Shown: in pieces, positions 1 through 26,319 of the stretch
How the letters are laid out: every line of letters begins with the position of its first letter
Numbering within the stretch: position 1 is the first letter of the stretch
Assembly (NCBI GenBank): GCA_945878515.1
Contig: CAMCTL010000006.1
Location: 1-40,940, forward strand
Reading direction: 5' to 3'
Length of the DNA stretch: 40,940 nt
DNA from: Flavobacterium psychrophilum
Lineage (GTDB): Bacteria > Bacteroidota > Bacteroidia > Flavobacteriales > Flavobacteriaceae
Translations under genes and position numbers: made by a program
Notes under the pieces: model-generated
Told to the model about the DNA's origin: nothing
The model's input: only the letters and a program-made list of their open reading frames with translations
The model's database searches: none

Positions 1-2040
1 GGTGTTGGTCAAATTATTGGTGCGATTCAAGTCGTTTTCCAATTGTTTCCCCCAATGCATCGGCAAGAAAACTACGCCTTCTTTGATGCTATCGGTTACT
101 TTGGCTTTAACTCTGACATTGCCATTTTTACTCGTCACCACAACAATATCTCCAGTTTTTATGACAGATTTGTAGGCATCTATAGGATTTATTTCGAGCA
201 CTGGACTTGGAATATGGGTCATCAATCGGGACACTTTCCCTGTTTTTGTCATCGTATGCCATTGATCTCGAATTCTACCTGTGGTCAAAATAAATGGAAA
301 CTTATCACTAGGTTTCTCAGATGTATTTTCAATTGAAGTTGGAATATTGAAAATGGCTTTTTGCGAAGGCGTATAGAATTTTTTATCGGTAAATAATCGT
401 GGCGTTCCGGGATGCCCATAATCGGGAACCGGCCATTGAAAAGTGCCTTCATTTTTCAGTCGATTGTAATTCAAAAAGGAAATATCCATTTTGGTGCCTT
501 TGGTCATCAAGCAATATTCCTTGTAAACCTCTTCGGTGGTATTGAAATTGAACCCATTAAATTTCATTTTCTGCGCAAAACGAATCAAAATTTCCACATC
601 CGAAAGGGCTTCGCCTGGTGCATTGATTCCTTTTGGAAGGTAGGAAATCCGCCTTTCGGAATTGGTCATTGTTCCGTCTTTCTCCAGCCAACCTGCCGCA
701 GGCAATAGCAAATCGGCAAATTTGGCGGTGTCAGAATTATGTGAAATATCTTGAACAACTACAAATTTGGCGTTTTGTAATGCCTTTTCAACTCTACGAG
801 AATCGGGTAAACTTACCATTGGATTGGTACAAATAATCCAAATCGCTTTCATTTTTCCAGATTCTAAAGCGTCGAACATTTCGGTTGCCGTTAAACCTGG
901 TTTTTCAGAAATTTCATTTACTCCCCAAAATTCGGCGACTTCTTTGCGATGAATGGGATTGTTTAATTCTTTGTGAACGGCTAATAGATTTGCTAAGCCA
1001 CCTACTTCTCTTCCGCCCATTGCATTGGGTTGACCGGTTAAAGAAAATGGTCCTGAACCTGGTTTTCCAACTTGTCCAGTAACCAAAGAAAGGTTGAGTA
1101 GCGCGGTATTTTTATCGACTCCAATAGCACTTTGGTTTAAACCCATTGCCCAAAGTGAAATAAACCCTTTGGCTTTTCCGATAATATCGGCAGCTAATTT
1201 GATGTCTTTTACAGTAACACCACAAAGTTTAGACGCTTTTTCAAATGAACTAGATAAAACCAAGTCTTTATATGCTTTGAAATTTTCAGTGTTGTTTTTA
1301 ATAAAATCATTGTCGATATATCCTTTTTCGATTAATCGCTTTCCTATGGCGTGATAGAGAATTATATCGGTTCCGGGAATAATTTGCAAATGCAAATCCG
1401 CTAAAGCAGCCGAATCAGTGCGACGCGGATCGATAACGATTATTTTTATCTTTGGATTTTTCTCTTTGTGTAGCTCCAATCGTCTAAAAAGAATTGGATG
1501 ACACCAAGCTGGATTAGCTCCAGTAATCAAGAATGTATCAGCCAATTCGATGTCATCATACGCAATAGGAACGCTATCTTCACCAAAGGTTTTTTTGTAA
1601 CCCACCACAGCCGAACTCATACAAAGTCTAGAGTTGGTGTCTATATTATTGGTTTTGAGAAATCCTTTGACCAGTTTATTTACCAAATAATATTCTTCGG
1701 TAAGACATTGTCCAGAAACATAAAAACCAACACTATCAGGCCCGTGCTTATTGATAATGGAAGAAAAAACTGCGGCTGCTCGATCCAAAGCGGCTTCCCA
1801 ACTCACTCTTTCTTTGGGGTGTGATTTGCTCCAACGCATTTCGGGATACAAAATTCGATCCGAAGTATCGTTTGCCACATAATGTAAATTCATTCCTTTA
1901 GAACAAAGCATTCCTCTATTTACAGGATGATCAACATCGCCTTTTAATGATACGCCATTTTTAGCATCATTCGTTACAATAATTCCACAGCCTACACCAC
2001 AATAAGAGCACGTAGTTTTAATTTCTGAATTTTGCATCAT
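1..2040 (-). CDS. nasC: Assimilatory nitrate reductase catalytic subunit (molybdopterin oxidoreductase), C-terminus outside window
   Basis: The reverse strand is open over 680 codons from ATG ATG at 2040 to the window edge, so the protein is cut at its C-terminus by the window, not by mutation. The N-terminus has the [4Fe-4S] pattern C11-x2-C14-x3-C18-x27-C46 (CSYCGVGCG), then the bis-MGD catalytic domain with C140 in SRLCMSSA, the position of the molybdenum-ligating cysteine in Nap/Nas enzymes. The last visible residues lie in the molybdopterin dinucleotide-binding domain. No twin-arginine signal is present, which fits a cytoplasmic assimilatory enzyme reducing nitrate to nitrite. It is divergent from the Crp/Fnr gene and shares a 155-bp regulatory region with it. 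Neighbouring nitrate transporter and nirBD genes support nitrate as substrate. Any C-terminal 2Fe-2S or flavin extension cannot be judged here. Confidence 0.93.
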   Translation of the reverse strand, partial: MMQNSEIKTTCSYCGVGCGIIVTNDAKNGVSLKGDVDHPVNRGMLCSKGMNLHYVANDTSDRILYPEMRWSKSHPKERVSWEAALDRAAAVFSSIINKHGPDSVGFYVSGQCLTEEYYLVNKLVKGFLKTNNIDTNSRLCMSSAVVGYKKTFGEDSVPIAYDDIELADTFLITGANPAWCHPILFRRLELHKEKNPKIKIIVIDPRRTDSAALADLHLQIIPGTDIILYHAIGKRLIEKGYIDNDFIKNNTENFKAYKDLVLSSSFEKASKLCGVTVKDIKLAADIIGKAKGFISLWAMGLNQSAIGVDKNTALLNLSLVTGQVGKPGSGPFSLTGQPNAMGGREVGGLANLLAVHKELNNPIHRKEVAEFWGVNEISEKPGLTATEMFDALESGKMKAIWIICTNPMVSLPDSRRVEKALQNAKFVVVQDISHNSDTAKFADLLLPAAGWLEKDGTMTNSERRISYLPKGINAPGEALSDVEILIRFAQKMKFNGFNFNTTEEVYKEYCLMTKGTKMDISFLNYNRLKNEGTFQWPVPDYGHPGTPRLFTDKKFYTPSQKAIFNIPTSIENTSEKPSDKFPFILTTGRIRDQWHTMTKTGKVSRLMTHIPSPVLEINPIDAYKSVIKTGDIVVVTSKNGNVRVKAKVTDSIKEGVVFLPMHWGKQLENDLNRTNNLTNT

Positions 2041-2104
2041 TGAAATTCTTTATAAATTGAAAAACTTTGCATATAAATTTTAAAAATGTAAAAATAAGTA
2101 TTTT

Positions 2105-2120
2105 TACGTATAAATACGTA
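2105..2120. promoter_or_regulatory. Palindrome site 1, nasC / crp-fnr divergent promoter
   Basis: TACGTAT-AA-ATACGTA is a perfect inverted repeat with 7-bp arms and a 2-bp spacer. Its centre is about 40 bases upstream of the start predicted from the TAcgTTTG box at 2140-2147, a typical class II activator position for the regulator gene. It also lies 72 bases upstream of nasC. A further half-site (TAAGTA) is at 2095-2100. It matches the palindromes at 3089, 9277 and 15026. Confidence 0.7.
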
Positions 2121-2139
2121 TAAAACAAAAAATATTTTA

Positions 2140-2147
2140 TACGTTTG
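2140..2147 (+). promoter_or_regulatory. Putative -7 box of the crp/fnr gene
   Basis: TAcgTTTG matches the Bacteroidota primary sigma factor -7 consensus TAnnTTTG, 49 bases before the start codon. No clear -33 TTG lies at the usual distance, which fits an activator-dependent promoter with the palindrome at 2105-2120 in its place. Confidence 0.45.
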
Positions 2148-2195
2148 ACAAAATAATTATTGAAAAAATCAATTTGCGCCTAATTCCATTTTATT

Positions 2196-2894
2196 ATGAA
2201 GAAAGAAACACCAATTTGCGAAAACTGTTCGAATGAAAATTGTTTCATCAAAAAGCATCTTCATTTAGAAAAAATGCAGCAATACATTGAAAAAAAGAAC
2301 AGTTTTGTTTGCAAAAAATCGCAACAATTTATAATCGAAGGTGCGCCAACACAAGGTTTATATTTTGTTTACAAAGGAAAAGTAAAGACTGTAAAAACAG
2401 GCATTTACGGAAGAGAACAAATTGTACGACTTACTACAAATGGCGATGTTGTGGGATTCCGTGGTTTTGCTACAAGCAAACGTTGCCTTATTGGCGCTTC
2501 GGCTTTAGAGGATACTATTTTATGCAATTTTAGTAATGAAGATATGTTGGATATTCTTAAAAACTTACCCGAATTCACCTTTGATTTGATGCTGTTTTAT
2601 GCCGAAGAATTAAACAAAAGCGAGAATAATATTCGAAAAATTGCGCAAATGAATGTCCGAGAAAGAGTTATTGATACCTTATTATATATACATCGAAAAT
2701 TTGGTCAGTCCAATGGCGTTATTGACGTCGAATTATCAAGACGTGACATCGCCGATTTTGCTGGAACCACCGAGGAACAAGTAATAAGGGTATTATCAAG
2801 TTTAAAAAAAGAACTTCTGCTCAAAACTGTTGGCAAAAAAATAGGGCTTCTGAACGTAGAAAAAATGCGTTCTGAAATTATTGAACACAAATAA
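2196..2894 (+). CDS. Crp/Fnr family transcriptional regulator, probable nitrate-cluster activator
   Basis: This 232-residue protein has an N-terminal cyclic-nucleotide-binding-like beta barrel (about 25-135), a dimerisation helix (about 135-160) and a C-terminal winged helix (about 165-225). The N-terminus carries C8-x2-C11-x4-C16, similar in layout to the FNR iron-sulfur ligands; C97 or C110 could be the fourth. The recognition helix, TTEEQVIRVL at 191-200, aligns with CRP CSRETVGRIL: the E and second R that read the inner G are kept, but CRP R180 is replaced by E193. This predicts a target retaining G at position 4 of each half but not at position 2, as in TA[A/C]GTAT. Its placement between nasC and the transporter genes suggests control of nitrate assimilation. 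Whether it senses redox state, NO or something else is not shown. Confidence 0.88.
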   Translation: MKKETPICENCSNENCFIKKHLHLEKMQQYIEKKNSFVCKKSQQFIIEGAPTQGLYFVYKGKVKTVKTGIYGREQIVRLTTNGDVVGFRGFATSKRCLIGASALEDTILCNFSNEDMLDILKNLPEFTFDLMLFYAEELNKSENNIRKIAQMNVRERVIDTLLYIHRKFGQSNGVIDVELSRRDIADFAGTTEEQVIRVLSSLKKELLLKTVGKKIGLLNVEKMRSEIIEHK

Positions 2895-3088
2895 TCTTTA
2901 GAATTATGATTACGACTTCATTTTGTCTAAATGACAAACAGATATATCTACGTAAATTACTTAATTTCTAATACTCACTTATACTTGAACTTACCGCTAT
3001 TTACTGCCAAAAAACATAAAATTAACTATTTAAGTCCTCTTTATTTATGTAGTAAAAAGAGATTTTAGCCTGTACTATTTCATAAGAA

Positions 3089-3104
3089 TAAGTATTTATA
3101 CTTA
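3089..3104. promoter_or_regulatory. Palindrome site 2, upstream of porin
   Basis: TAAGTAT-TT-ATACTTA is a perfect 7-2-7 inverted repeat of the same class as site 1. It ends two bases before a TAcaTTTG box at 3107-3114. The centre would then be near -23, which is more usual for a repressor; alternatively the box is fortuitous and the true promoter lies elsewhere. Confidence 0.68.
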
Positions 3105-3106
3105 CG

Positions 3107-3114
3107 TACATTTG
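3107..3114 (+). promoter_or_regulatory. Putative -7 box of the porin-nrt operon
   Basis: TAcaTTTG matches TAnnTTTG and predicts a start near 3120, about 20 bases before the porin ATG. The call is uncertain in such AT-rich DNA. Confidence 0.4.
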
Positions 3115-3140
3115 TAACATACTAATTAAAACAAATCATT

Positions 3141-4559
3141 ATGCAAACAACTATGAACAAATTACTAAGTATTCAAGGTTTCAAAAATGAAACAATTGCA
3201 AGAGTAAATCTTTCAAAATCATTTTTTTTAGGCATTACATTATTGATTTTTGGTCAAAATGTGGCCCATGCGCAATTAACCGCTACGGGTCAGATTAGAG
3301 AAAGAACCGAGGCAAGAGGCGGTCAGGCAACTTTATTACAAGAAGGACAACGTGGCGCATTATTTAATTCGCAACGTACAAGATTAAACGTAGGATATAC
3401 TGGATATAGGTATAAAGTGTATGCTTCATTACAAGATGTTCGTGTATGGGGACAAGACGCTTCAACAATAAACAGGACAAATCTCGAAGCCAATGACGGT
3501 ATTTTGTTTCACGAAGCTTGGACTGAAATTATGCTTATTGATACTATTAGTAGCATTCAAAATTTATCTTTAAAAATTGGTCGTCAAGAAATTTCGTATG
3601 ATGATCAAAAGGTTCTTGGTAGTTTAGATTGGTTGCAACAAGCACGAAGACACGATGCAATAGTATTAAAATATGCCAACAAAGGTTGGACTGCCGATTT
3701 TGGTGCAGCTTTTAATCAAAGAACTGAACAAAATACAGGAACATTGTATAACGGACAACCAAGCACGTATGCAGCGGGTACCAATCAAATAGGTCACGCA
3801 TATAAATCATTTCAGTATGCTTACATTGGTAAAAAATTGTATTTTGGTGATGTGTCATTCCTTTTCTTCAAAGACGATTTTAGCAAATTTACAGGAACTG
3901 TTGCAGCTCCAACAATTATAGAGGGTGTAAATTCAAGAACTACTACCGGTTTTTATTATAACCTTAATCCTACCAGAAAGATTAATTTGAATGGTAGCGT
4001 ATACTACCAAGGTGGTAAGGACAAATCTGGAAAATATATTAGCGCAAAACTTGCATCATTAACGGCTACATATCAGGCTGGAAGAAAATTATCGTTGGGA
4101 TTAGGAGCTGATTATTTATCCGGAACAGACGAGTCTAAAGAGGCTACACATAATAACCAGTTCGATCCGCTATACGGAACTCCTCACAAATTCTGGGGTT
4201 ATATGGATTATTTTTATGTGGCTAACCAGTTTGGTCAGCAAGGTTTGTTTAATTATTTTGTAAAAGCAAAATACAACGCTTCGGATAAATTAGGTTTATT
4301 TTTAGATGTTCACGGCTTCGAATCTGCTGCAAAACTCAATGGTGGTTTAGATAGTTATTTAGGAACTGAAATCGATTTGAAAGCAAATTACAAATTCACC
4401 AAACTAATCAATTTAGAGTTCGGCTATTCAACAATGTTAGCTAAAAACACTATGGCATCGGCAGCGGTAAAAAATGTTGTAAATCCAGAATTGACAGCAC
4501 ATTGGGCATATTTGATGTTGAACATTACACCCAACTTTCTGAACACAAAAAAAATGTAA
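3141..4559 (+). CDS. Outer-membrane porin, alginate-export-like family
   Basis: A 472-residue protein with a long N-terminal region, then a hydrophobic stretch (about 27-40) and a likely signal peptidase site after AHA at about 44. The mature part is rich in alternating aromatic and polar residues, typical of an outer-membrane beta barrel. Early segments (QIRERTEARGG, NSQRTRLNVGY, VWGQD) resemble the alginate export family (PF13372), a label often given to specific porins in Bacteroidota. It is the first gene of a set continuing into the nitrate ABC transporter and lies behind palindrome site 2. This suggests an entry route for nitrate or nitrite; alginate as substrate is unlikely here. A second ATG at 3153 is a possible start. 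Confidence 0.8.
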   Translation: MQTTMNKLLSIQGFKNETIARVNLSKSFFLGITLLIFGQNVAHAQLTATGQIRERTEARGGQATLLQEGQRGALFNSQRTRLNVGYTGYRYKVYASLQDVRVWGQDASTINRTNLEANDGILFHEAWTEIMLIDTISSIQNLSLKIGRQEISYDDQKVLGSLDWLQQARRHDAIVLKYANKGWTADFGAAFNQRTEQNTGTLYNGQPSTYAAGTNQIGHAYKSFQYAYIGKKLYFGDVSFLFFKDDFSKFTGTVAAPTIIEGVNSRTTTGFYYNLNPTRKINLNGSVYYQGGKDKSGKYISAKLASLTATYQAGRKLSLGLGADYLSGTDESKEATHNNQFDPLYGTPHKFWGYMDYFYVANQFGQQGLFNYFVKAKYNASDKLGLFLDVHGFESAAKLNGGLDSYLGTEIDLKANYKFTKLINLEFGYSTMLAKNTMASAAVKNVVNPELTAHWAYLMLNITPNFLNTKKM

Positions 4560-4576
4560 TTTAATTAAAGAAAAGA

Positions 4577-4616
4577 GATGATAGAGTATAGATAATAGAC
4601 TAAACGATAATAGATT
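4577..4616. repeat. Short word repeats between porin and nrtA
   Basis: The gap contains GATAATAGA twice (4591-4599 and 4606-4614) and related GATAGA words. It belongs to a set of locus-specific intergenic word repeats in this window. No terminator is evident, so porin and nrtA may be cotranscribed. Confidence 0.45.
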
Positions 4617-4649
4617 TAAGATTTTAATAAAATTATAAACAACAATAGT

Positions 4650-5864
4650 ATGAAAAATTATTCAAGCCAAATTATGAAAATAGCTGCAGCAATCTTGCTC
4701 ACTGTTTTCACAACTTTTACAGCTACAAATGCTCAAGAAGCAGTAAAATTAGGGTTTATTCCGCTAACGGATTGTTCGCCAATAGTTATGGCAAAAGAAT
4801 TGGGATTGTTCAAAAAATATGGCGTCGAAGTAATTGTAACCAAAGAATCTTCTTGGGCTAATGTTAGAGACAAAATCCTTACAGGTGAACTAGATGGCGC
4901 ACATTGCTTATATTCTATGCCGTTTTCAGTTTATACTGGAGTTGGCGGAAAAGCAGGATCTGAGATGAAAATTGCAATGATGCTGAATGTCAATGGACAG
5001 GCAGTAACACTTTCCAATGACTTTTGTGGAAAAGTAGGCTTTAAACAAATGAACAAAGTAACTCCAGTTGTTGCTGCTAAATTAAAAGCCGAGAAAGAAG
5101 TAACTTTTGCAATGACATTTCCTGGTGGAACTCACGATTTGTGGCTCAGAAACTGGATGTCAATTGCAGGATTGAATCAAAAATCGGTAAAAATAATTAC
5201 TATTCCTCCTCCACAAATGGTAGCCAATATGAAGGTAGGAAATATGGACGGCTATTGCGTTGGTGAACCTTGGGGCGGAGTTGCTGTTAAACAAGGAGTT
5301 GGATTTACTCAAGTTGCAACTCAAGATATTTGGAAAGATCATCCTGAAAAAGCTTTGGTTGTTAATAAAGATTTTAGCTCAAAACACAAAGCTGATTTAG
5401 TTAAAGTAATGAAAGCAGTAATGGAAGCTTGCAAATGGCTGGATGTTCCTGCAAATCGTAAAAAAGCTGCTGCCATTATTGGAAAAGCACCTTATGTAAA
5501 TGCTCCTGCTGAAGTAATCGAAAATAGATTGATGGGGAATTATGATTTGGGTTGCAACCAAGGAACAGAAATTTATGACAATGATTATATGTTATTTCAC
5601 AAAGGTGGAATGGTCAATTATCCGCGCAAATCACACGCAATTTGGGCAATGGCACAATATGTTAGATTCGGATATTTAGATGAGGCACCAAATTATAAAG
5701 CAATTGCCGATAAATTAATTCTTCAGGATTTATACGAAGAAGTAGCTGCAAGCATGAAAGTAAAAGTACCAACAGATGATATGAAACCTTTTTCTCTAAC
5801 TATGGACAAAACTGTTTTTGACCCTAATAATCCAGCGGCTTATTTAAAAGTGGTGAAGAAGTAG
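4650..5864 (+). CDS. nrtA: Nitrate ABC transporter substrate-binding protein (NrtA/CmpA-like)
   Basis: This 404-residue periplasmic binding protein has a Sec signal ending near ATNAQ (about 27-29) and no lipobox cysteine. The mature start, KLGFIPLTDCSPIVMAKELG, followed by FKKYGVEV, is characteristic of the NrtA/CmpA family that binds nitrate, nitrite or bicarbonate. FPGGTHDLWLRNWM and the later GEPWGG are also family-typical. With the permease and ATPase it would form a high-affinity nitrate importer. The alternative start at 4674 would give a more compact signal peptide. It is separated from the permease by 76 bases containing a strong hairpin. Nitrate, not bicarbonate, is inferred from the neighbouring nasC and nirBD. 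Confidence 0.9.
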   Translation: MKNYSSQIMKIAAAILLTVFTTFTATNAQEAVKLGFIPLTDCSPIVMAKELGLFKKYGVEVIVTKESSWANVRDKILTGELDGAHCLYSMPFSVYTGVGGKAGSEMKIAMMLNVNGQAVTLSNDFCGKVGFKQMNKVTPVVAAKLKAEKEVTFAMTFPGGTHDLWLRNWMSIAGLNQKSVKIITIPPPQMVANMKVGNMDGYCVGEPWGGVAVKQGVGFTQVATQDIWKDHPEKALVVNKDFSSKHKADLVKVMKAVMEACKWLDVPANRKKAAAIIGKAPYVNAPAEVIENRLMGNYDLGCNQGTEIYDNDYMLFHKGGMVNYPRKSHAIWAMAQYVRFGYLDEAPNYKAIADKLILQDLYEEVAASMKVKVPTDDMKPFSLTMDKTVFDPNNPAAYLKVVKK

Positions 5865-5873
5865 TTTTTTTTT

Positions 5874-5901
5874 GACACTCCCGAAAGCCTTCGGGAGTGT
5901 C
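5874..5901 (+). terminator. Strong hairpin between nrtA and nrtB
   Basis: GACACTCCCGAA and TTCGGGAGTGTC form a perfect 12-bp GC-rich stem with a 4-base loop (AGCC), just after the nrtA stop. A run of eight T lies before it and only a short ATTTTT after it. It probably terminates partially or protects the nrtA 3' end, giving more binding protein than permease. Confidence 0.75.
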
Positions 5902-5940
5902 TAAGATTTTTCCAATAAATACAATTAAAATGATATTACA

Positions 5941-6822
5941 ATGACAGAAAATAGCACAATTACAATAAACGATGCGGAATCAACACTAAACTTGGTTAGT
6001 GAAACAACCATTGAAAGTTCAAAAAACACCGAAAAATGGACTGAAATGCTCGGGACAGTTTTTGAAAAATCAAAATCAGTATTTTTTGCAATTATCGGTT
6101 TGATCGCTTTCGGAGGGTTTTGGAGCTTGCTGACCATTTATACAGAACAAGCACTTCCGGGTCCAATAGCAACGCTAACTGTTTTGAAAGAAATGTTGAG
6201 CGACCCATTTTATGACTACGGACCCAACGACAAAGGAATTGGTTTACAATTATTCGTTTCTATAAAAACCGTACTAATGGGCTTTTTGATGGGTTCCTTA
6301 ATTGCTATTCCGATCGGAATTTTAATGGGAGCAAGTACCATTTGCAAACAAATTTTCTATCCAATTGTGCAATTGTTGAAACCAGTTTCGCCTTTGGCTT
6401 GGTTTCCAATAGGTTTGGTTGTTTTTAAAGACACTGGAATGGCAACAATATTTATTGTTTTCATAACGTCGTTGTGGTCCACATTGATTAACACTTCTTT
6501 TGGAGTAGGATCTATTCCGCAAGATCATAAAAATGTCGCCAAAGCTTTTGGTTTTTCGAAAATGAGATATTTAACTAAAATATTGATTCCATATAGTTTA
6601 CCACATATCATCACAGGTTTACGTTTAAGTATCAGTGTGGCTTGGCTAGTAATTGTTGCTGGCGAAATGCTGTCTGGCGGAGCAGGAATTGGTTTTTTTG
6701 TTTGGGACAGTTGGAATGCTCTAAGTCTAGAGAAAGTAATATCGGCTATCATCATCATTGGAATCGTAGGCTTACTTTTCGATAGGATATTTACTTATAT
6801 TGAGAACAAAGTTGCCTATTAA
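5941..6822 (+). CDS. nrtB: Nitrate ABC transporter permease (NrtB-like)
   Basis: A 293-residue inner-membrane protein of the binding-protein-dependent permease family. A hydrophilic N-terminal tail of about 45 residues, rich in Thr/Ser/Glu, precedes six or so membrane segments. The cytoplasmic EAA-type loop is visible in AKAFGFSKMRYLTKILIPYSLP, which contacts the ATPase, followed by the typical GLRLSISVAWLVIVAGEML. The family imports nitrate, sulfonates or bicarbonate; context selects nitrate. The N-terminal tail is longer than in many NrtB proteins and of unknown role. It lies downstream of the nrtA hairpin and 87 bases before the ATPase gene. Confidence 0.9.
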   Translation: MTENSTITINDAESTLNLVSETTIESSKNTEKWTEMLGTVFEKSKSVFFAIIGLIAFGGFWSLLTIYTEQALPGPIATLTVLKEMLSDPFYDYGPNDKGIGLQLFVSIKTVLMGFLMGSLIAIPIGILMGASTICKQIFYPIVQLLKPVSPLAWFPIGLVVFKDTGMATIFIVFITSLWSTLINTSFGVGSIPQDHKNVAKAFGFSKMRYLTKILIPYSLPHIITGLRLSISVAWLVIVAGEMLSGGAGIGFFVWDSWNALSLEKVISAIIIIGIVGLLFDRIFTYIENKVAY

Positions 6823-6831
6823 GGCTTCAAA

Positions 6832-6873
6832 GTTTAAAGGTTTAAAATTGTTTAAACTCTTAAACCTTTAAAC
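6832..6873. repeat. GTTTAAA-word inverted repeat between nrtB and the ATPase gene
   Basis: GTTTAAAGGTTTAA (6832-6845) and TTAAACCTTTAAAC (6860-6873) are perfect 14-bp complements around a 14-base loop. More TTAAAC words follow to 6900. There is no T-run after the stem, so simple termination is unlikely. It is one of the locus-specific word repeats. Confidence 0.7.
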
Positions 6874-6909
6874 AACCTTAAACTGTTAAACAATTTAAAC
6901 AAAAACAAA

Positions 6910-7716
6910 ATGAGCTATCTAGAAATAAAAGACTTGGAAATCTCTTTTCCAACTCCAAAAGGGAAATACATTGCAGTAAAAGACATTAATCTTTCGATCA
7001 AGAAAGGGGAAATCATCTCTATAATTGGACATTCGGGTTGCGGAAAATCGACAATTATGAATGCGATTGCGGGAATGTTAAATCCAACAGGCGGGAATGT
7101 TGTGTTGGATGGAAAAACCATCAAAGGTCCAGGTCCAGACAGAGGAATTGTATTCCAAAACTATTCTTTATTGCCTTGGTTATCGGTTCACGAAAATATT
7201 TTTCAAGCTGTGGATTCGGTTATGGATTGTTCCAAAAAAGAAAAACACGAAATCGTGGATTACAATCTTAAAATGGTTAATTTATTGTCTCATCGAGATA
7301 AATTGCCAGGACAATTATCAGGCGGAATGAAACAACGTGTGGCTATTGCAAGAGCTTTTGCTATCAATCCTGGAGTTTTGTTGTTGGATGAACCATTTGG
7401 TGCTTTGGATGCATTTACCAAAAGTTCGATGCAACTAGAAGTGTTGAAACTTTGGAACCTTAACAACCGCGATAAAACCATTATAATGATTACGCACGAC
7501 ATCGAAGAAGCCTTGTTTTTATCGGACAGAATCGTAGTGATGAATGATGGTCCAGCATCGACAATTAGAGAAATCGTAGAAGTTCATCTGAAAAGACCAA
7601 GAAATAAAATTGAGATTGTAAAAACTACAGAATATATTGAATTGAGAGATAAACTATTACATCTACTTACCGAAGAATTTTCTATTGAAGATATGGGCGT
7701 GGTTTATAAAAGTTAG
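6910..7716 (+). CDS. nrtD: Nitrate ABC transporter ATP-binding protein (NrtD-like)
   Basis: A 268-residue ABC ATPase. Visible motifs are Walker A GHSGCGKST (about 39-47), the Q-loop QNYSLLPW, the signature LSGGMKQR, Walker B VLLLDEPFGALD and the H-loop THD. The sequence is closest in style to the NrtD/SsuB/TauB group. It lacks the C-terminal substrate-binding domain of cyanobacterial NrtC, so this transporter has one short ATPase type, presumably as a homodimer. It is the last gene of the transporter operon; a terminator follows at 7742. Confidence 0.92.
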   Translation: MSYLEIKDLEISFPTPKGKYIAVKDINLSIKKGEIISIIGHSGCGKSTIMNAIAGMLNPTGGNVVLDGKTIKGPGPDRGIVFQNYSLLPWLSVHENIFQAVDSVMDCSKKEKHEIVDYNLKMVNLLSHRDKLPGQLSGGMKQRVAIARAFAINPGVLLLDEPFGALDAFTKSSMQLEVLKLWNLNNRDKTIIMITHDIEEALFLSDRIVVMNDGPASTIREIVEVHLKRPRNKIEIVKTTEYIELRDKLLHLLTEEFSIEDMGVVYKS

Positions 7717-7741
7717 TTTGAATTTAGTTTGGTTAGTAAGA

Positions 7742-7775
7742 ATCCCTGTAAATTTTAACATTGCAGGGATCTTTT
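7742..7775 (+). terminator. Intrinsic terminator of the nrt operon
   Basis: ATCCCTG and CAGGGAT form a 7-bp stem with a 15-base A/T-rich loop, followed by CTTTT and further T-rich sequence. It separates the transporter genes from the chlorite dismutase gene. Confidence 0.75.
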
Positions 7776-7811
7776 AATTTAAAAAGGTAATTAATTTAAA
7801 AAAATAACTTT

Positions 7812-8360
7812 ATGTTAGATTCAATTTTTGATTTTATTGGAGCTGATTCCGGTGAATGGAAAGTGGCTTCAACTTCTACATTTAAAGGTAGTCCCCTGCC
7901 ATCAGTATCACATCTAACAAAAATAGCTAGCAATTTAGTTCCAACAGCATCAGGAATTTGGACTCTTAAAGGAATCGTAAGTAATCTTAGGTACACAGAG
8001 AAAGAAGAAAAGGACAAATTAGTTGCCATGCAAGAAGATTTGGGAAGACCTAATGCAACTTTTGCAGCCTTTATTCCAATCCGGAAATCAGAAGCATGGT
8101 GGAATCTAGCACAAGACGAACGCCGAAAGATAATGGAAAACAAATCGCAACATACGCATACCGGAATGAAATACCTACCGGCTATTGCGAGGAAGTTATT
8201 CCATTCTCGAGATATTGGTGAACCTTTTGATTTTTTGACATGGTTTGAATATGCTCCCGAACATCTGGACGATTTTGAGGAACTTTTATTTGCACTTCGG
8301 AAAACAGAAGAATGGACTTATATTGATAGAGAAATTGATATAAGATTGGAAAAGATGTAA
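7812..8360 (+). CDS. cld: Chlorite dismutase, short dimeric-type heme protein
   Basis: This 182-residue protein matches the short (lineage II) chlorite dismutase family along its full length. Marker segments are LKGIVSNLRYT, LGRPNATFAAFIPIRKS, the WW pair at 96-97, and EPFDFLTWFEYAPEH. H114 falls where the proximal heme ligand lies and R127 where the distal catalytic arginine lies; both numbers coincide with those I recall for the Nitrobacter winogradskyi enzyme. The distal arginine separates true chlorite-decomposing enzymes from HemQ-like relatives. The reaction is chlorite to chloride plus O2. No signal peptide, so cytoplasmic. Its place between the nitrate transporter and regulators suggests detoxification of chlorite formed from chlorate by nitrate reductase. 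It lies beyond the nrt terminator and probably has its own promoter. Confidence 0.88.
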   Translation: MLDSIFDFIGADSGEWKVASTSTFKGSPLPSVSHLTKIASNLVPTASGIWTLKGIVSNLRYTEKEEKDKLVAMQEDLGRPNATFAAFIPIRKSEAWWNLAQDERRKIMENKSQHTHTGMKYLPAIARKLFHSRDIGEPFDFLTWFEYAPEHLDDFEELLFALRKTEEWTYIDREIDIRLEKM

Positions 8361-8589
8361 CTTTAATTTATTTTAGTAAAACTCAAAGGAATCTTCACTA
8401 TTTAGATAAACGCTAGCAAAAGCAGCACTAATTCTTTTTCTAAGGCAAGAATCGTCTTTCCGATAAATTGATTTTTGTCATTCAGGAATCCGATACTTTA
8501 TAATTAGCACTCTATGATTATTTCATGCATCCAATAAAAGTAGATTATCTGTTTTCCAAGTTGAACAGTAAAAAACTTATAATCAGCAA

Positions 8590-9249
8590 CTAAAGCAAAG
8601 AAAATTCCATAGCTTTGTGCGAAAGCTCTATCAAATTTTTAACTTTTAGCTTTTTCATTAAATTAAAACGGTGTACTTCGGCGGTTCGTTTGCTAATGTC
8701 TAATGCTTCTGCAATTTCTTTATTCCCTTTGCCTGATAACAATAGTACAAGAATTTCTTTTTCCCTTTTAGTAATCAACATTTCTTCGTTTGTAGATTGT
8801 TTCTCTTCTGAAAAATTGGTTGCTTGAGTCAATTGGCCTATCAATATAGAGGATATATCGCCACTAAAATATTTTCCACCTTCAGCAACAGTATTCAGTG
8901 CCTTAAGGAATTCTTCTTTGCTAGAGCCTTTCAGCAAATAGCCATCGGCGCCAGCTTTAATTGATTTCAGAACATATTCTTCGGATTCATGCATCGAAAG
9001 CATTACAATTTTTACGGGATTTTTCTGGCTACGCAGTTTTTCGACTACTTCAATACCCGTTAAATTAGGCATTCGAATATCAAGTATTAATAAATCTGGC
9101 TGATTGATTTCGATTGTTTTTAATGCTTCTAAACCATCTGTTGCCTCGCCAACTACTTCAATGTTGGCTTCGTTTTCTAATAATGATTTGATACCATCTC
9201 TTACAAACACGTGATCATCTGCTAGCACAACTCGAATCGGATTGCTCAT
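8590..9249 (-). CDS. NarL/FixJ family response regulator
   Basis: A 219-residue two-domain response regulator. The receiver has the acidic pair D11-D12, the phospho-acceptor D57 in LILDIRMPN, and a conserved KG at the end of its fifth strand region. The C-terminal LuxR-type helix-turn-helix (about 150-215) reads LITKREKEILVLLLSGKGNKEIAE and ISKRTAEVHRFNLMKKL. The residues aligned with NarL K188 and K192 are E and F, so DNA specificity should differ from enteric NarL. Its partner is most likely the kinase at 9574-11379, whose gene lies upstream on the same strand but 324 bases away. Palindrome site 4 lies 28-43 bases upstream of the start, suggesting autoregulation or control by the Crp/Fnr protein. 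Confidence 0.9.
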   Translation of the reverse strand: MSNPIRVVLADDHVFVRDGIKSLLENEANIEVVGEATDGLEALKTIEINQPDLLILDIRMPNLTGIEVVEKLRSQKNPVKIVMLSMHESEEYVLKSIKAGADGYLLKGSSKEEFLKALNTVAEGGKYFSGDISSILIGQLTQATNFSEEKQSTNEEMLITKREKEILVLLLSGKGNKEIAEALDISKRTAEVHRFNLMKKLKVKNLIELSHKAMEFSLL

Positions 9250-9276
9250 AATCTACTTAATTTTTAATTTAATTTT

Positions 9277-9292
9277 TAAGTATATAAACTTA
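9277..9292. promoter_or_regulatory. Palindrome site 4, upstream of response regulator
   Basis: TAAGTAT-AT-AAACTTA matches the 7-2-7 motif of the other three sites with one mismatch. It is nested in a wider inverted repeat, TTTTTAAGT (9273-9281) and ACTTAAAAA (9288-9296). The centre is about 35 bases before the response regulator ATG. Confidence 0.55.
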
Positions 9293-9309
9293 AAAAGTGA
9301 TGCTAATGT

Positions 9310-9570
9310 ACGTAATTTTCAATTGCAATTTCAATTTCAAAAATCAATTTCAAAAATCGATTTCAAATTCAAAAATCAATTTCAGTGTAATAATATTTAA
9401 CAAAAAAATATTGCTAATAATCATTGTAACTATATTCTGCGGTGAACCTACCATTCTAGCCTTGCTTCAATTACTGATGGTTTTAAATTGTAATTACGCA
9501 TATTTATCATTAACATTTTATTGAAATTGTAATTGAAATTGTAATTGAATTTGATTTTTGAATTTGATGT
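9310..9570. repeat. AATTTCAA-word repeats flanking a 170-bp core in the kinase-regulator gap
   Basis: This non-coding gap starts with repeated TTTCAAAAATCAA-like words (9317-9384) and ends with two tandem copies of ATTGAAATTGTA (9520-9543) plus related words. TCAAATTCAAAAATCAA (9363-9379) and its exact complement (9551-9567) form a 17-bp perfect inverted repeat 171 bases apart. The core between them has no open frame of note. It could be a decayed non-autonomous element or slippage-derived sequence; no target duplication is recognised. Confidence 0.6.
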
Positions 9571-9573
9571 TTT

Positions 9574-11379
9574 TTAAATAGGAATGTTAAAAGTAATTCT
9601 AGTTCCCTCATCAGGAACAGAATTAAAAAACACACGACCGTTGATGTATTGTATTCTTTCTTTCATAAAAAGCAATCCCATTCCCGATTCGCTATTTCGC
9701 TTTTTTTCTACTGAGGAAACGTCAAAACCTTTTCCATTGTCATCAATTATAATGCTCAAAAGTTTGTCACTATGCGAAAGTTGAACAATGATATGCGTAG
9801 AATTGGCATATTTCAAAGCATTATTAATAGCTTCTTGAGTCAGCCTATAAATGTTAATTTCGACTAATGAATCCAATCGTTGGTCAAAATTGGTTTTGTT
9901 ATAAAACAAAATTTCTTTTCCAGTAAGTTTTGATAATTCCTGAGTTAGTTTTGCCAAAGAAGATACAATTCCGTGGTCGCTCAATTCAGGAGGCATCAAG
10001 TTGAAAGTAGCAGTACGAACACCTTTTATAATGTCTAAGGATAATTTTTTAAGATATTCAATTTTTTGAGCCGATTTTTCTTGGTCGTCCAGATTAATAC
10101 TTTCGAGACTGAATTTTAACCCTGTAAGCATTTGTCCAATGCCGTCGTGAATTTCTTTGGCAATACGGTTTTGTTCATTTTCTTGGTTTTCGACAATCTT
10201 ACTCGAGATTAATTTTTGCTGATTGAGTTTGTCTGTGATGTTCTCGGTATTCAACCGCTCAACTTCTTGCTCTGCTTTTTTTCTTTCAGTAATATCAAAA
10301 CAAATGACCAACAATTCCGCTTCGTCTTTCCTGATAGTCACCGGAATCATGGATAAATCAAGCCAAATCAATTGTTCGTTTCGAGTCGTAATATTTATCT
10401 CGCCTTGCCAACCCGTTCGTTGTTTTTCAAGAAAAATCTGTTGTAGAAAGTTCTGCTCTTTTTCAATTGGAGTTAATGCCTGCGCAAAAGTTTTATCTGA
10501 AAGGAAAGAATTGTATTGCAGTAATTTGGAAAATTTTTCTCCAATATGAATAATAGATCCATCGGGCGCAACCCTACAATACAAAAGGGTGTTTTCCATT
10601 GCATAATTAAGTGACTTCAATTCTTTCACTGAATTTTCTTTTGCTTCGCTGATGACTTCGGTGTCGTGTGCAAGTTTTAGTGCTTTTTTCTCTGACAATA
10701 AAAGTTTTGAAATTAGATCCTCTACATTTTTATTTGTAGGTTTAAAAATAAAAATGAATTCTAAGATTAGTACAAGTATTGTAAAAAATAAAATAAGATA
10801 TTCGGTCTTACTTTGTAAAGTCACTTTTTTGCGGGCTTCAATATCATACTGCCCTACTATTTGATCCATTTTATCCAAAAAAACGGCGGAATTTTTTAAA
10901 ATGGTATCAACCAATACCTGATTTTCCTCTTCATTTATTCTGTTCTTTTTATTGTCTAAAAATGATGATGAAGCGCTAATAATAGTGTTAAAGTTTGGTT
11001 TTATTCCGAGATATAAATCATTAAGTTCTTTACTTTTTTCTTTTGGAAAACCGAGACTATCATTCCCTATTTCTAAGGCATAATGATTGAATTTCCAAAG
11101 CCGCTTGATCTCGTTAATTTTATCAATTCCCGCGTCAATATTATTGCTGTCGGTTACAAAATTTAAAATCAAAATCTCTTTGGTTAGCTTTTGACTCAAA
11201 AAACGCTGCTTTCCTGAATAATTAATGATTTTAGAATCGCTTAATTGGGTAAAAATATTATACTGAATAACCAATTGACTTAGCAAAACGGTAACCGCGA
11301 TGGTCAATAATGCAAAAATGTATAATTTCTTTAAGTTTTTGAAAGAAATAGATGCCGAGGTAAGTTTGTTGTTTTTCAT
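9574..11379 (-). CDS. NarX-like sensor histidine kinase with PilJ-type sensor and PAS domain
   Basis: A 601-residue membrane kinase. TM1 (about 19-38) is followed by a PilJ/NarX-type periplasmic domain with INYSGKQRFLSQKL at 52-65, comparable to the nitrate-binding P-box of NarX. TM2 is about 194-213, then a coiled region, a PAS domain (about 262-365, ending FDITERKKAEQE), and a HisKA_3 dimerisation domain with phospho-acceptor H411 in KEIHDGIGQ. The catalytic domain has the N box EAINNALKYA and G boxes DDNGKGF and GMGLLFMKERI. This is the usual partner architecture for a NarL-type regulator. It starts 11 bases after the DUF4202 gene, downstream of nirBD, so nitrate or nitrite is the probable signal. 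Direct nitrate binding is inferred, not shown. Confidence 0.9.
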   Translation of the reverse strand: MKNNKLTSASISFKNLKKLYIFALLTIAVTVLLSQLVIQYNIFTQLSDSKIINYSGKQRFLSQKLTKEILILNFVTDSNNIDAGIDKINEIKRLWKFNHYALEIGNDSLGFPKEKSKELNDLYLGIKPNFNTIISASSSFLDNKKNRINEEENQVLVDTILKNSAVFLDKMDQIVGQYDIEARKKVTLQSKTEYLILFFTILVLILEFIFIFKPTNKNVEDLISKLLLSEKKALKLAHDTEVISEAKENSVKELKSLNYAMENTLLYCRVAPDGSIIHIGEKFSKLLQYNSFLSDKTFAQALTPIEKEQNFLQQIFLEKQRTGWQGEINITTRNEQLIWLDLSMIPVTIRKDEAELLVICFDITERKKAEQEVERLNTENITDKLNQQKLISSKIVENQENEQNRIAKEIHDGIGQMLTGLKFSLESINLDDQEKSAQKIEYLKKLSLDIIKGVRTATFNLMPPELSDHGIVSSLAKLTQELSKLTGKEILFYNKTNFDQRLDSLVEINIYRLTQEAINNALKYANSTHIIVQLSHSDKLLSIIIDDNGKGFDVSSVEKKRNSESGMGLLFMKERIQYINGRVFFNSVPDEGTRITFNIPI

Positions 11380-11390
11380 TGGAAACGCTA

Positions 11391-11972
11391 TTACATCCCA
11401 AGTGAATCTTTGATCAATTGAAAATTAGAATCGCTAAAATTGATTTTCAAGGCTTCTTCATGTCCTTTTATTGACATTTTATTCCAAGTTTTCAGGATGA
11501 TGTTTTTCATTTTTTCTCGGTCGTGTTTTTGTGCAAAATCATCAAAGTAATATTCCAGAAACACCAGACAAATTACATCTTCGAGGAGTTGGGTTTCGAT
11601 ATCTTTTTTGAGTAATTTTTTTTCGATAAGGAAAGAAACTCTATCTATAAATATTGGAGAATATCCAGCTTTTTCTAAAATTTCGGCAGTAGTTTGGGCG
11701 TGAAATTTCTTTAAGTCTTCACGCCACTTTAAATAGCCAACGCGATCCATGGGGAAGGATTCGCGCGGCATTTTCCAACGGCAAATGTGTTGCGCTTTTG
11801 CAGCAATCTGAATTTCTTCGGAAGCATTTGGATAAAAATCCATCAGTCTTTCAAACATTCGATTCGAATATAAAAGTTCCTTTGGGTAGCTATTGTACTG
11901 GTATATTTCACTGTTTGGATCTTGTGCATTTTCGGCATCAATCCACGCACTGGCGTTCTGAAATGGTGTCAT
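11391..11972 (-). CDS. DUF4202 family protein, nitrite-reductase-associated
   Basis: A 193-residue soluble, mostly helical protein resembling the DUF4202 family: the start FQNASAWIDAENAQDPN, AQHICRWKMPRESFPMDRVGYLKWR and EDVICLVFLEYYF are the recognisable blocks. The spaced histidines, acidic residues and tyrosine in the helices recall HD-domain folds, but no HD dyad is certain and no activity is known to me. It lies 34 bases after nirD and 11 before the kinase gene, so it is very probably cotranscribed with them. A role in nitrite reductase maturation, siroheme handling or signalling is possible but unproven. Confidence 0.75.
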   Translation of the reverse strand: MTPFQNASAWIDAENAQDPNSEIYQYNSYPKELLYSNRMFERLMDFYPNASEEIQIAAKAQHICRWKMPRESFPMDRVGYLKWREDLKKFHAQTTAEILEKAGYSPIFIDRVSFLIEKKLLKKDIETQLLEDVICLVFLEYYFDDFAQKHDREKMKNIILKTWNKMSIKGHEEALKINFSDSNFQLIKDSLGM

Positions 11973-12006
11973 TTAATTTGAATTGTTTAAATTCAAAGAT
12001 ACACAA

Positions 12007-12384
12007 TTATTCCAAAAAGCCAACGAATACTTCGCCGTCCACCACTTTTACAGGATATGTAGCAATCGAATATTCTTCGCCATTCAGGTTGGAGCCATCA
12101 GTAAGGGAAAAAGTTTTTTTGTGCATAGGACATGCAATTTTAGGGATTTCGTCAGCAGAACCAATCATTCCTCTAGACAAAACCATTTCCATTTTGTGCG
12201 GACAAACATTTTGGCAAGCATACCATTCGTTTCTGCGAGTGAAGTTAATGACTGCAATTTGCTTGTTTTTATATTTGATACAACCTCCACCTTCAGTTGG
12301 AAAATCAGTAGTTTTTCCAGCTTTGAACCAAACATTTACATCGTTAAACTGAACCGTTTCGTATTGATTTAAAATATCTTGCAT
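12007..12384 (-). CDS. nirD: Nitrite reductase (NADH) small subunit, Rieske-type
   Basis: A 125-residue Rieske-fold protein. The two ligand loops are complete: C61-P-H63 in NVCPHKM and C85-P-M-H88 in IACPMHKK, so it should bind a [2Fe-2S] cluster. The E. coli NirD subunit lacks these ligands. It partners NirB in the cytoplasmic six-electron reduction of nitrite to ammonium. It lies 106 bases downstream of nirB in the same direction. The gap contains no strong terminator, so an operon is likely. Confidence 0.92.
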   Translation of the reverse strand: MQDILNQYETVQFNDVNVWFKAGKTTDFPTEGGGCIKYKNKQIAVINFTRRNEWYACQNVCPHKMEMVLSRGMIGSADEIPKIACPMHKKTFSLTDGSNLNGEEYSIATYPVKVVDGEVFVGFLE

Positions 12385-12490
12385 AATTTTAGTTTTTAAA
12401 ATTCCATCTCTTCAACATAGTAAATTTAGGTCTGCCAAAGATCAAATCCTGTTTGTTACAATTGATGGAAGATTTTTTGAATAGTTGATA

Positions 12491-14995
12491 TTACCAGGCT
12501 GAAGGCATTTTTTGACCTCTAAGAGGAATATATTCTAAAGTATCATCACGATCCTCTGAATTGGTAAAATGACTGAAACGTTTCATCATTTCGGGATCTT
12601 CAATGGCTTGTTTCCACTCGCATTCAAAAGTATCTACTAATTGTTTCATTTCGGCTTCAAGTGTTTCGTTGATTCCAAGGCTGTCGTTAATCACTATGTT
12701 TTTCAAATATTCAATTCCACCTTCTAATTTTTCTAGCCAAGTTGAAGTTCTTACTAATGGTCCTGCGGTTATAATGTAGTACATTAAGAAACGATCCATA
12801 TACTTAATTACCGTTTCTTTATCGATAGATTCTGCTAATATAACGGCGTGTTTCGGATTCGCTCCTCCGTTTCCACAGATATACAAATTCCAACCACCTT
12901 CAACTGCAATTACACCAAAATCTTTGCCTCTAGCCTCGGCACATTCTCTGATACAAGCCGAAACTCCTCCTTTTAATTTATGCGGAGAACGGATTCCTCG
13001 GTAACGATTTTCTAATTCGATAGCCAATGTAGTACTATCATCCATTCCGTAGCGACACCAAGCATTACCTACGCAACTTTTAACCGCTCGTAATGATTTT
13101 CCGTAAGCGTGACCACTTTCGAAACCATTGTCTATAAGGGTTTTCCAAATGGCTGGTAAGTCATTCAATTCGGCTCCGAATAAATCGACTCTTTGCGCCC
13201 CGGTAATTTTGGTGTATAAATTGTATTTTTTAGCTACTTCGCCTACAACTATTAATTTTTCGGCAGTAACTTCTCCTCCAGCCATTCTCGGCACCACTGA
13301 ATAGGTTCCGTTGCGTTGAATATTTGCTAAAAATCGATCGTTAGAATCTTGGGCTGTAATATGTTTGTTGGCAGTATCATTATAAATGCTTGAAAAAATA
13401 GATGACAAAACGGGTTTACACACTTCGCAACCATCTCCTTTTCCTATGACACCCAACACTTCATTGTGATTGGTGAATTTATTTATTTTTATAATATCGA
13501 ATAATTCCTGTCTGCTATAGGCAAAATGCTCACAAACAACATCTTTTACTTCTTTTCCTAGGGATTTTTGGGTTGCTTTTACAATATCAACGACCATCGG
13601 TTTGCAACCACCACAACCTGTTGTCGCTTTGGTCAATTTTACTACATCCGAAAAGGTTTCACAGGTTCCATCTGTTATTGAGCAACATATAGCTCCTTTA
13701 GTAATATTTTCGCAAGAACAAATCACAGCCGAATCAGGCAAATCATTTGCTCCCAAAGTTGTTGATTCTCCACCTCTAGAACCCAAAATCAAATCTTCGG
13801 GATTTTTCGGCAATGACATAGCGTTACTGTAAATTTGGAACAATCCGTTGTAGTCTGATGAATCGCCAACAAGAATTCCGCCCAAAAGTGTTTTACCGTC
13901 TTTGGTCACATTGATTCTTTTGTAAACTCCGCTGAATTTATTTTCATATACAATAGCAACAACTTCATCATTTTCTACGAAAGGATCACCAAAACTCGCT
14001 ACCTCGACACCAATTAATTTCAATTGAGTGGACATATCGATGGTTTCTCGCATCGTTTTTTGACCATTTAAGATTTGGTCGGCAGCAACATCTGCCATTT
14101 CGTAACCTGGTGCTACCAAACCGTAAATCATACTGTTATACAGTGCTACTTCGCCAATAGCATAAATATTAGAATCCGACGTTTGCATTCTATTGTTCAC
14201 AACAATTCCGCCACGTGCTCCCACTTCAAGTCCTGCAACTCTACCTAGTTCGTCACGAGGTTTTATTCCTGCCGAAATAACGAGCATGTCTACTTTTAAT
14301 AATTCATCATCGGCAAACATCATCCCGGTAATTGCGGTGTCGCCATCTATATATTGTGTCGCTTTATTTAGGTGTATGCCAATGTTGAGTGCTTCAATTT
14401 TAGATTGCAACATATTGCTTGCAGCTTTATCTAATTGTCTGGGCATCAGTTTGGGGGCAAATTCTACCACATGAGCATTCAATCCCATTCCTAAAACGGC
14501 ATTGGCGGCCTCAAGTCCCAATAGTCCACCTCCCAAAACAGCAGCTTGAGTTGCTCCTTTCTTTTTTATTTTTTTTGCGTAGGACATCATGGCGTCCAAA
14601 TCTTCGATGGTTCTATAGACAAAAACGCCTTCTTTGTCCGAACCTTTTATGGGCGGAACAAAAGCCGAAGATCCTGTAGCTAAAACTAAGTAGTCATAAC
14701 TAAGTATTTTTCCAAGATGAGTTGTGATTGTTTTATTTTCTTTGTCTAAGCCAACAACCAATTCCGATGTATTAAGTACAATATTATTTTCTTCATACCA
14801 CGACAAAGTGCTCATTGACAAATCATCGGCAGACTTGCCTCCAAAGTATTCACTCAGGTGAACACGGTCGTAAGCGCGTCGTGGTTCTTCACCAAAAACT
14901 GTAATCTGATAGTTCTCTTGACCCGATTTTGCAATGAATTTTTCACAAAATTTATAACCAACCATGCCGTTGCCGACTACAATAACTTTAAGCAT
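12491..14995 (-). CDS. nirB: Nitrite reductase (NADH) large subunit
   Basis: The 834-residue protein starts at the ATG at 14995, giving MLKVIVVGNGMVG, the canonical NirB N-terminus; an upstream in-frame TTG at 15022 overlaps the promoter box and is rejected. Domains in order are an FAD/NAD(P)H-binding pyridine nucleotide-disulfide oxidoreductase part (1-290, second Rossmann GGGLLGLEAAN near 155), a NirB-type middle domain, a BFD-like [2Fe-2S] domain (CSCEN near 427, CGGC near 461), a second CEVC pair near 525, and the siroheme/[4Fe-4S] half-domain repeat. Siroheme-cluster cysteines are CVGNAWC near 640 and CIREC near 680. It reduces nitrite to ammonium with NADH and NirD. Palindrome site 3 lies in its promoter. 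Confidence 0.95.
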   Translation of the reverse strand: MLKVIVVGNGMVGYKFCEKFIAKSGQENYQITVFGEEPRRAYDRVHLSEYFGGKSADDLSMSTLSWYEENNIVLNTSELVVGLDKENKTITTHLGKILSYDYLVLATGSSAFVPPIKGSDKEGVFVYRTIEDLDAMMSYAKKIKKKGATQAAVLGGGLLGLEAANAVLGMGLNAHVVEFAPKLMPRQLDKAASNMLQSKIEALNIGIHLNKATQYIDGDTAITGMMFADDELLKVDMLVISAGIKPRDELGRVAGLEVGARGGIVVNNRMQTSDSNIYAIGEVALYNSMIYGLVAPGYEMADVAADQILNGQKTMRETIDMSTQLKLIGVEVASFGDPFVENDEVVAIVYENKFSGVYKRINVTKDGKTLLGGILVGDSSDYNGLFQIYSNAMSLPKNPEDLILGSRGGESTTLGANDLPDSAVICSCENITKGAICCSITDGTCETFSDVVKLTKATTGCGGCKPMVVDIVKATQKSLGKEVKDVVCEHFAYSRQELFDIIKINKFTNHNEVLGVIGKGDGCEVCKPVLSSIFSSIYNDTANKHITAQDSNDRFLANIQRNGTYSVVPRMAGGEVTAEKLIVVGEVAKKYNLYTKITGAQRVDLFGAELNDLPAIWKTLIDNGFESGHAYGKSLRAVKSCVGNAWCRYGMDDSTTLAIELENRYRGIRSPHKLKGGVSACIRECAEARGKDFGVIAVEGGWNLYICGNGGANPKHAVILAESIDKETVIKYMDRFLMYYIITAGPLVRTSTWLEKLEGGIEYLKNIVINDSLGINETLEAEMKQLVDTFECEWKQAIEDPEMMKRFSHFTNSEDRDDTLEYIPLRGQKMPSAW

Positions 14996-15019
14996 ACTAC
15001 ATAAATTAAGTATTAGACG

Positions 15020-15027
15020 CAAAAATA
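15020..15027 (-). promoter_or_regulatory. Putative -7 box of nirB
   Basis: On the minus strand TAttTTTG matches TAnnTTTG and shares two bases with the end of palindrome site 3. It predicts a start near 15014 and a leader of about 19 bases to the nirB ATG. Confidence 0.4.
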
Positions 15028-15041
15028 CGTATTAATACTTA
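15026..15041. promoter_or_regulatory. Palindrome site 3, nirB promoter
   Basis: On the minus strand TAAGTAT-TA-ATACGTA; all seven arm positions fit the TA[A/C]GTAT class and pair across the dyad except one A/C difference. Further TAAGTAT words occur just upstream (15046-15053 region) and one downstream near 15007-15013, so several half-sites are clustered. Confidence 0.65.
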
Positions 15042-26267: not shown

Positions 26268-26305
26268 CGGAATCTGAAATCTGAATTTAAAAATCTTCAA
26301 TCTAA
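26268..26305. repeat. ATCTGAA-word repeats
   Basis: The gap before the methyltransferase gene carries repeated ATCTGAA / ATCTTCAATCT words. Short and direct only. It is of the same type as the other word repeats. Confidence 0.4.
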
Positions 26306-26311
26306 AATAAG

Positions 26312-26319
26312 TACCTTTG
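26312..26319 (+). promoter_or_regulatory. Putative -7 box of the RsmB-like gene
   Basis: TAccTTTG followed by CAC matches the Bacteroidota -7 consensus, 18 bases before the start codon. Confidence 0.5.

Follow-up and report, generated by a model that had tools for sequence, protein, structure and literature searches.

The closest described relatives of the system reported here are known in parts (all papers are cited from excerpts). The nitrate-sensing kinases of Bacteroidetes have been described as being without HAMP and GAF domains and as carrying a PAS domain in Flavobacteriales, with the kinase and its partner labelled narHK/narRR (PMC8199190); the same source, a 2021 review, lists the role of nitrate-sensing kinases across different organisms as open (PMC8199190). 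Among DNA-binding response regulators, NarL prefers inverted heptamers placed 2 bp apart (PMC4549865), and the site selected in vitro by FixJ is GTAMGTAG (PMC4999443). Here we analyze 40,940 nucleotides of the Flavobacterium psychrophilum genome (assembly GCA_945878515.1, contig CAMCTL010000006.1, positions 1 to 40,940 of the forward strand; hereafter the window), in which the palindrome TAMGTAT-N2-ATACKTA recurs in the promoters of a nitrate gene cluster. Judging from sequence comparisons, we consider it highly probable that this palindrome, the neighbouring NarL/FixJ-type response regulator (8590-9249) and a regulon of nitrate genes belong together. Among open-licence PMC papers we found none on the motif, on the regulon, or on a link between this regulator, site and gene set.

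Allowing at most one mismatch, the palindrome matches the window five times (starts 2095, 2105, 3089, 9277 and 15026), whereas 100 dinucleotide shuffles average 0.02 matches and never reach five; a chance origin of the window copies is excluded. An earlier note on this DNA, made from its letters alone, had listed four sites, and all four are where it put them, three exact (2105-2120, 3089-3104 and 15026-15041) and one with a single mismatch (9277-9292); the extra copy at 2095-2110 had escaped it. Its remark that no other gap of the window has the motif also holds, because the 20 further matches that appear when up to three mismatches are allowed (25 in total) all carry exactly three. The copies, and the genes concerned as called from Pfam and NCBIfam, are as follows.

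2095-2110: palindrome with one mismatch, overlapping the 2105 copy in a 10-bp register, in a double site kept in relatives
2105-2120: exact palindrome in the divergent nasC/crp gap, conserved
3089-3104: exact palindrome upstream of the porin-nrt genes
9277-9292: palindrome with one mismatch upstream of the response-regulator gene, in the kinase/response-regulator gap
15026-15041: exact palindrome upstream of nirB (minus strand)
4-2037, minus strand: nasC-type molybdopterin oxidoreductase (Pfam), cut by the window edge; proposed target
2196-2894, plus strand: Crp/Fnr-family protein, proposed as target and not as binder
3141-4559, plus strand: Alginate_exp porin, proposed target, followed by nitrate ABC transporter genes (4650-7716)
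8590-9249, minus strand: response regulator with receiver and LuxR/GerE helix-turn-helix (HTH) domains (Pfam), closest solved structure NarL; proposed binder
9574-11379, minus strand: histidine kinase with PilJ/P-box sensor, PAS, HisKA_3 and HATPase_c domains
12491-14995, minus strand: nirB, proposed target, followed by nirD (12007-12384)

Given the 2095 copy, the nasC/crp gap forms an array of three half-sites spaced 10 bp apart. The likely start of nirB is the ATG at 14995, from which the centre of the 15026 palindrome is 38.5 bp away.

Exact copies were then counted in 24 genomes, which together hold 79, compared to 5 for the reversed pattern; two of the genomes (G022 and G024) have none. 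The Flavobacterium genomes G001-G021 contain 77 exact copies, 76 of which were placed (73, plus three of the four in G004, whose fourth copy is unplaced). A nitrate gene starts at most 260 bp downstream of 71 of these 76 (68/73 by script, plus the three in G004, which lie at nasC/crp, porin and nirB). The targets behind the 71 sites are nasC, crp, the porin, nirB, moeA (in 6 genomes, an assignment confirmed by Pfam), a second binding protein, and carriers that are MFS_1 proteins and that we take to be NarK-like. One further copy (G002, L089) is upstream of a tetrapyrrole methylase gene, presumably cobA-like, and the remaining four placed copies are away from nitrate genes (L116, L122, L127 and one in L115); for the L115 copy, at position 6705, no nitrate gene was recognised over a distance of 260 bp. 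With exact copies few per genome and placed in this way, the earlier note's suggestion that the sites mark one regulon stands up to computation.

Relatives of the locus were gathered with the nitrate binding protein as the query, because it is biased to neither candidate regulator; of the at least 80 loci obtained, L001-L041 were examined and L042-L080, from other phyla, were set aside. The porin palindrome (at most one mismatch) was found in all 24 loci with a porin of at least 60% identity (L001-L019, L021, L026, L027, L032 and L034), and no such copy precedes the porin in L020 and L036, where porin identity is 59%. The nasC/crp double site is kept in 21 of the 22 loci that combine such a porin with a Crp at 74% identity or above. 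The conservation at orthologous promoters on which the earlier note had made its reading depend was found: all 21 genomes G001-G021 have the nirB palindrome with at most one mismatch, its centre 39.5-40.5 bp from the start codon. In relatives, the 9277 palindrome retains its regulator-proximal half (ATACGTA) and has a degenerate second half. The Cytophagaceae record L033 has sites near the kinase, the porin and nasC, and no Crp within the locus. Motif, placement and conservation, together with the co-occurrence with the regulator described next, are direct observations on sequence.

Two proteins of the locus are candidates for reading the palindrome, and the earlier note had left the choice between them open. 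A Crp-type dimer site would have 16 bp and twofold symmetry, as the palindrome does, and the site adjoins crp itself. We searched 249 Flavobacteriaceae genomes for the exact motif, the response regulator and Crp, scoring at most 12 regulator and at most 11 Crp candidates per genome; orthologues were taken at 212 bits or more for the regulator (next score 156.6) and 231 or more for Crp (next 132), with a clear score gap to paralogues. The regulator is present in 60 genomes, which include every one of the 44 that have a Crp orthologue. The motif occurs in 44/44 genomes with both proteins (143 sites, 1 control site), in 15/16 with the regulator and no Crp orthologue (32 sites, 5 control), and in 25/189 with neither (42 sites, 23 control; Fisher p = 2.6×10−11 for regulator-only versus neither, with kinship uncorrected). 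In five regulator-only genomes (G236, G106, G201, G188 and G167), copies with at most one mismatch precede nasC, nirB, the second binding protein and NarK-like carriers, and in G201 one is also found upstream of a globin gene. Conversely, the genomes of L020 and L036 have a Crp-like protein, no regulator (best match 168 bits) and no exact motif, with the caveat that at 46-47% identity the site of that protein could differ; those of L039 and L040 (Crp-like proteins of 33-35%, regulator matches of at most 142 bits) have 0 and 1 exact copies.

By these counts the motif tracks the response regulator of the locus and does not track Crp/Fnr. The confinement of Crp orthologues to motif-bearing genomes is what binding by Crp would predict, but 15 of the 16 Crp-less regulator genomes keep the motif, and in the five that were inspected it precedes the same set of nitrate genes, so that Crp/Fnr is disfavoured as the binder and we consider such binding very improbable. 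Of the two candidates the NarL-like protein is the favoured one, both by co-occurrence and by its recognition helix (below).

In the order of L033, the Cytophagales (194 genomes), the motif occurs in 31/52 genomes where a regulator homologue scores 198 bits or more (51 sites, 16 control) and in 17/142 below that score (20 sites, 10 control). In at least nine genomes the distance between motif and best homologue is 0.2-8.1 kb. The Cytophagales test is weaker than that in Flavobacteriaceae, because orthologues are not separable from paralogues by score. In each of the genomes of L028 and L030 a single copy shares the contig of the regulator, at a distance of about 7 kb.

Compared with solved structures, the whole regulator finds its best match in NarL (5e-39), and its HTH aligns with that of FixJ (ISKRTAEVHRFNLM to ISPRTVEVHRANVM) and also with NarL. 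Its scores against the NCBIfam models for NarL (163.1 bits, cut-off 250) and FixJ (93.3 bits, cut-off 255) lie below the cut-offs, and the kinase/regulator pair is also under the NarX cut-off. In motif-bearing loci the recognition helix is of the RTxExHR type (RTAEVHRFN, RTIETHRFN, RTIETHRAN, RTIEAHRFN, RTTEVHRFN). Three loci of the Pontibacter group (L035, L037, L038), which have nitrate clusters with kinase and regulator, carry the helix RT[IV]DNHRAS and no exact copy genome-wide, and would provide a natural case in which an altered helix accompanies loss of the site. No common variant of a TA-starting 7-2-7 palindrome was found within 260 bp before the cluster genes of these three loci and L025.

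Several observations weigh against the joint reading of regulator, palindrome and regulon. L025 keeps the helix RTIETHRFN in a locus without a site at one mismatch or fewer and a genome without an exact copy; in L029 the genome yields 3 control matches and not one exact copy, its only site being a one-mismatch copy before the porin; and G054, the exception among the regulator-only genomes, has the regulator and no exact copy. Two or more exact copies are held by 12 of the 189 regulator-less Flavobacteriaceae genomes. In Cytophagales, 21 of the 52 homologue-bearing genomes are without an exact copy, and 17 of the other 142 have one. Finally, the genomes are related, so the co-occurrence counts are not independent.

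Four regulator-less genomes (G057, G063, G180 and G229; loci L142-L153) have 2-4 exact copies each, with 11 of the 12 sites intergenic, and the 5-kb stretches around these sites contain no open frame with a match in the nitrate query set. In these genomes the same palindrome may be recognised by a different LuxR-type regulator.

To see how the palindromes relate to the promoters, we used the −7 box of Flavobacterium, TAnnTTTG, which spans −12 to −5 (PMC9723704). In the window the boxes are the following.

2140-2147, plus strand: −7 box TACGTTTG of crp, 35 bp past the start of the 2105 palindrome, an offset that is the same in relatives
3107-3114, plus strand: −7 box TACATTTG of the porin, 18 bp past the palindrome start and fused to a half-site (TACGTACATTTG, 3103-3114)
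15020-15027, minus strand: −7 box TATTTTTG of nirB, sharing its TA with the end of the palindrome
2089-2096, minus strand: probable −7 box TATTTTTA of nasC, final G replaced by A, fused to a half-site
9303-9310, minus strand: probable −7 box TACATTAG of the response-regulator gene, fused to the half-site TACGTA

On the minus strand, the last TA of the 2095 palindrome is the TA of the probable nasC box. Across relatives, 25/26 distinct nirB promoters have the box beginning 14 bp past the palindrome start, so that the palindrome overlaps the box. The corresponding offset is 18 bp for the porin (24/28), 35 and 45 for crp (21/43 each, from two overlapping palindromes), 14 (13/48) and 24 (12/48) for nasC, with 20 promoters lacking a strict box, 67 for narK1 (10/21), 14 for the second binding protein (3/6), 14 (2/12) and 67 (3/12) for narK2, and −11 for moeA (4/6), where the box precedes the palindrome by 11 bp and the palindrome is at the start region.

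Of 105 nitrate promoters (crp 0/15), 66 have the half-site TACKTA fused to the −7 box, compared to 10 of 107 others from the same loci, the latter set being partly orthologous and possibly containing unrecognised regulon members. The promoter of the regulator gene itself has the fused half-site plus the kept downstream half. Such fusion would also be expected if the motif were mainly an extended −7 element read by a sigma factor, but this explanation accounts neither for the twofold symmetry, nor for the crp and narK1 sites 35-67 bp upstream of the box, nor for the link to one response regulator, and we give it hardly any weight.

A −33 TTG at the customary spacing (17-22 bp) was found in only 7/105 nitrate promoters (6 of them porins) versus 40/107 of the others. 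The missing −33 elements speak for activation, and the overlap of the palindrome with the core promoter speaks for repression. If regulator, motif and regulon do belong together, we lean moderately towards activation. The same regulator and motif could instead act in repression, the dimer covering the −7 box or start region and blocking RNA polymerase until a signal lifts it. The nirB overlap and the moeA position fit such a repressor, and the NarL of E. coli acts as a repressor at frdA through a 7-2-7 site located at −4/+6 (PMC4549865). On the other hand, scarce −33 elements are expected of activator-dependent promoters, the crp (35/45) and narK1 (67) sites are upstream of the box, and a nitrate-activated repressor of nitrate-use genes would require an inverted kinase; we regard repression as rather unlikely, yet as the strongest of the alternatives. 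For activation by the regulator we tentatively suggest a specific layout, in which this LuxR-family protein would act inside the core promoter, with a half-site that shares bases of the −7 box and replaces the missing −33 element, so that nitrate promoters would fire only when bound, and with the sites at offsets 14, 24, 35, 45 and 67, roughly whole helical turns, presenting the same face. The helical phasing is only suggestive: the offsets 18 (porin) and −11 (moeA) misfit, and 24 and 45 stem from overlapping double sites.

Half-site-like words fused to a −7-like box also occur at 26302-26319, before a gene for an RsmB/F-type methyltransferase. This match is probably due to chance, because the fused pattern at one mismatch has 17 matches, barely above shuffles (mean 9.9). 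Upstream of the porin palindrome, a stretch at 3020-3070 (AAAAA, TTTT, TG) is conserved in 27 aligned promoters.

The kinase has Pfam matches to PilJ, PAS_9, HisKA_3 and HATPase_c, and none to HAMP or GAF at E 0.001. The nitrate P-box N-x-[AS]-G-x-x-R is present in it, reading INYSGKQRFLSQK, and was found in 27 of 31 distinct kinase starts. Because the sensor domain has no match in the PDB by sequence, even at E 10, the P-box call rests on Pfam and the motif. Since the PilJ domain and P-box match the published class (PMC8199190), we infer that nitrate is the signal. In the proposed scheme the kinase (9574-11379) would sense nitrate and phosphorylate the regulator (8590-9249), which would then dimerise on TAMGTAT-N2-ATACKTA and switch on genes that serve the uptake of nitrate, the reduction of nitrate and nitrite, and the molybdenum cofactor, including crp, and probably its own gene as well. 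Physical binding of the palindrome by the regulator is what the co-occurrence and helix patterns would predict.

The nitrate transporter consists of an NMT1_2-family binding protein with a permease and an ATPase that score above the nitrate-transporter cut-offs, and downstream of its genes is one for a chlorite-dismutase-like heme protein (7812-8360), present in part of the relatives. A DUF4202 gene (11391-11972) is located between the nirD and kinase genes, in the same place in L001, L003-L005, L010, L017 and others; it was not found between those two genes in L007. The kinase-regulator gap, 86 to 575 bp long across relatives, has low-complexity repeats of the CAATTTCAAAAAT and ATTGAAATTGTA type at 9320-9570 of the window. 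At about 5690-5750 of L104, and in its orthologues, a conserved hairpin (CTGCG...CGCAG, then T) that looks like a terminator lies between the palindrome downstream of the regulator gene and the promoter of the NarK-like carrier.

Compared with described systems, the kinase-regulator pair fits the Bacteroidetes narHK/narRR class, with which it shares the P-box (N, G and R in corresponding positions), a PAS domain replacing HAMP and GAF, a LuxR-type partner and a nitrate-gene neighbourhood (PMC8199190). The excerpts of that paper give no DNA site or regulon, both of which are proposed here; this little-studied branch of nitrate kinases would gain a candidate site, a gene list that extends beyond the cluster (moeA, NarK-like carriers, the second binding protein) and a promoter layout, and the proposed target set can be tested with a single 16-bp word. 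The site has the same layout of inverted heptamers, 7-2-7, as that of NarL (PMC4549865). Its half-site TAMGTAT differs from the heptamer TACCCCT of an engineered narG site (PMC4549865), as does the recognition helix (KVHVKH in E. coli NarL, EVHRFN here), and the targets, in contrast to those of E. coli NarX-NarL, are assimilatory. The helix is instead like that of Sinorhizobium FixJ (RTVEVHRANVM, against RTAEVHRFNLM here), and GTAMGTAG, the FixJ site, contains the TAMGTA of the half-site (PMC4999443); the FixJ system differs from the present one, which has a nitrate P-box sensor, nitrate-gene targets and a symmetric palindrome fused to the Bacteroidota −7 box. The regulator therefore appears to resemble NarL overall and in the geometry of its site, and FixJ in its recognition helix and half-site letters, which would make it a NarL-like protein that reads DNA with a helix of the FixJ type. 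The class of sensor-regulator pair is already published, and the link between regulator, site and gene set is the part that we propose as new.

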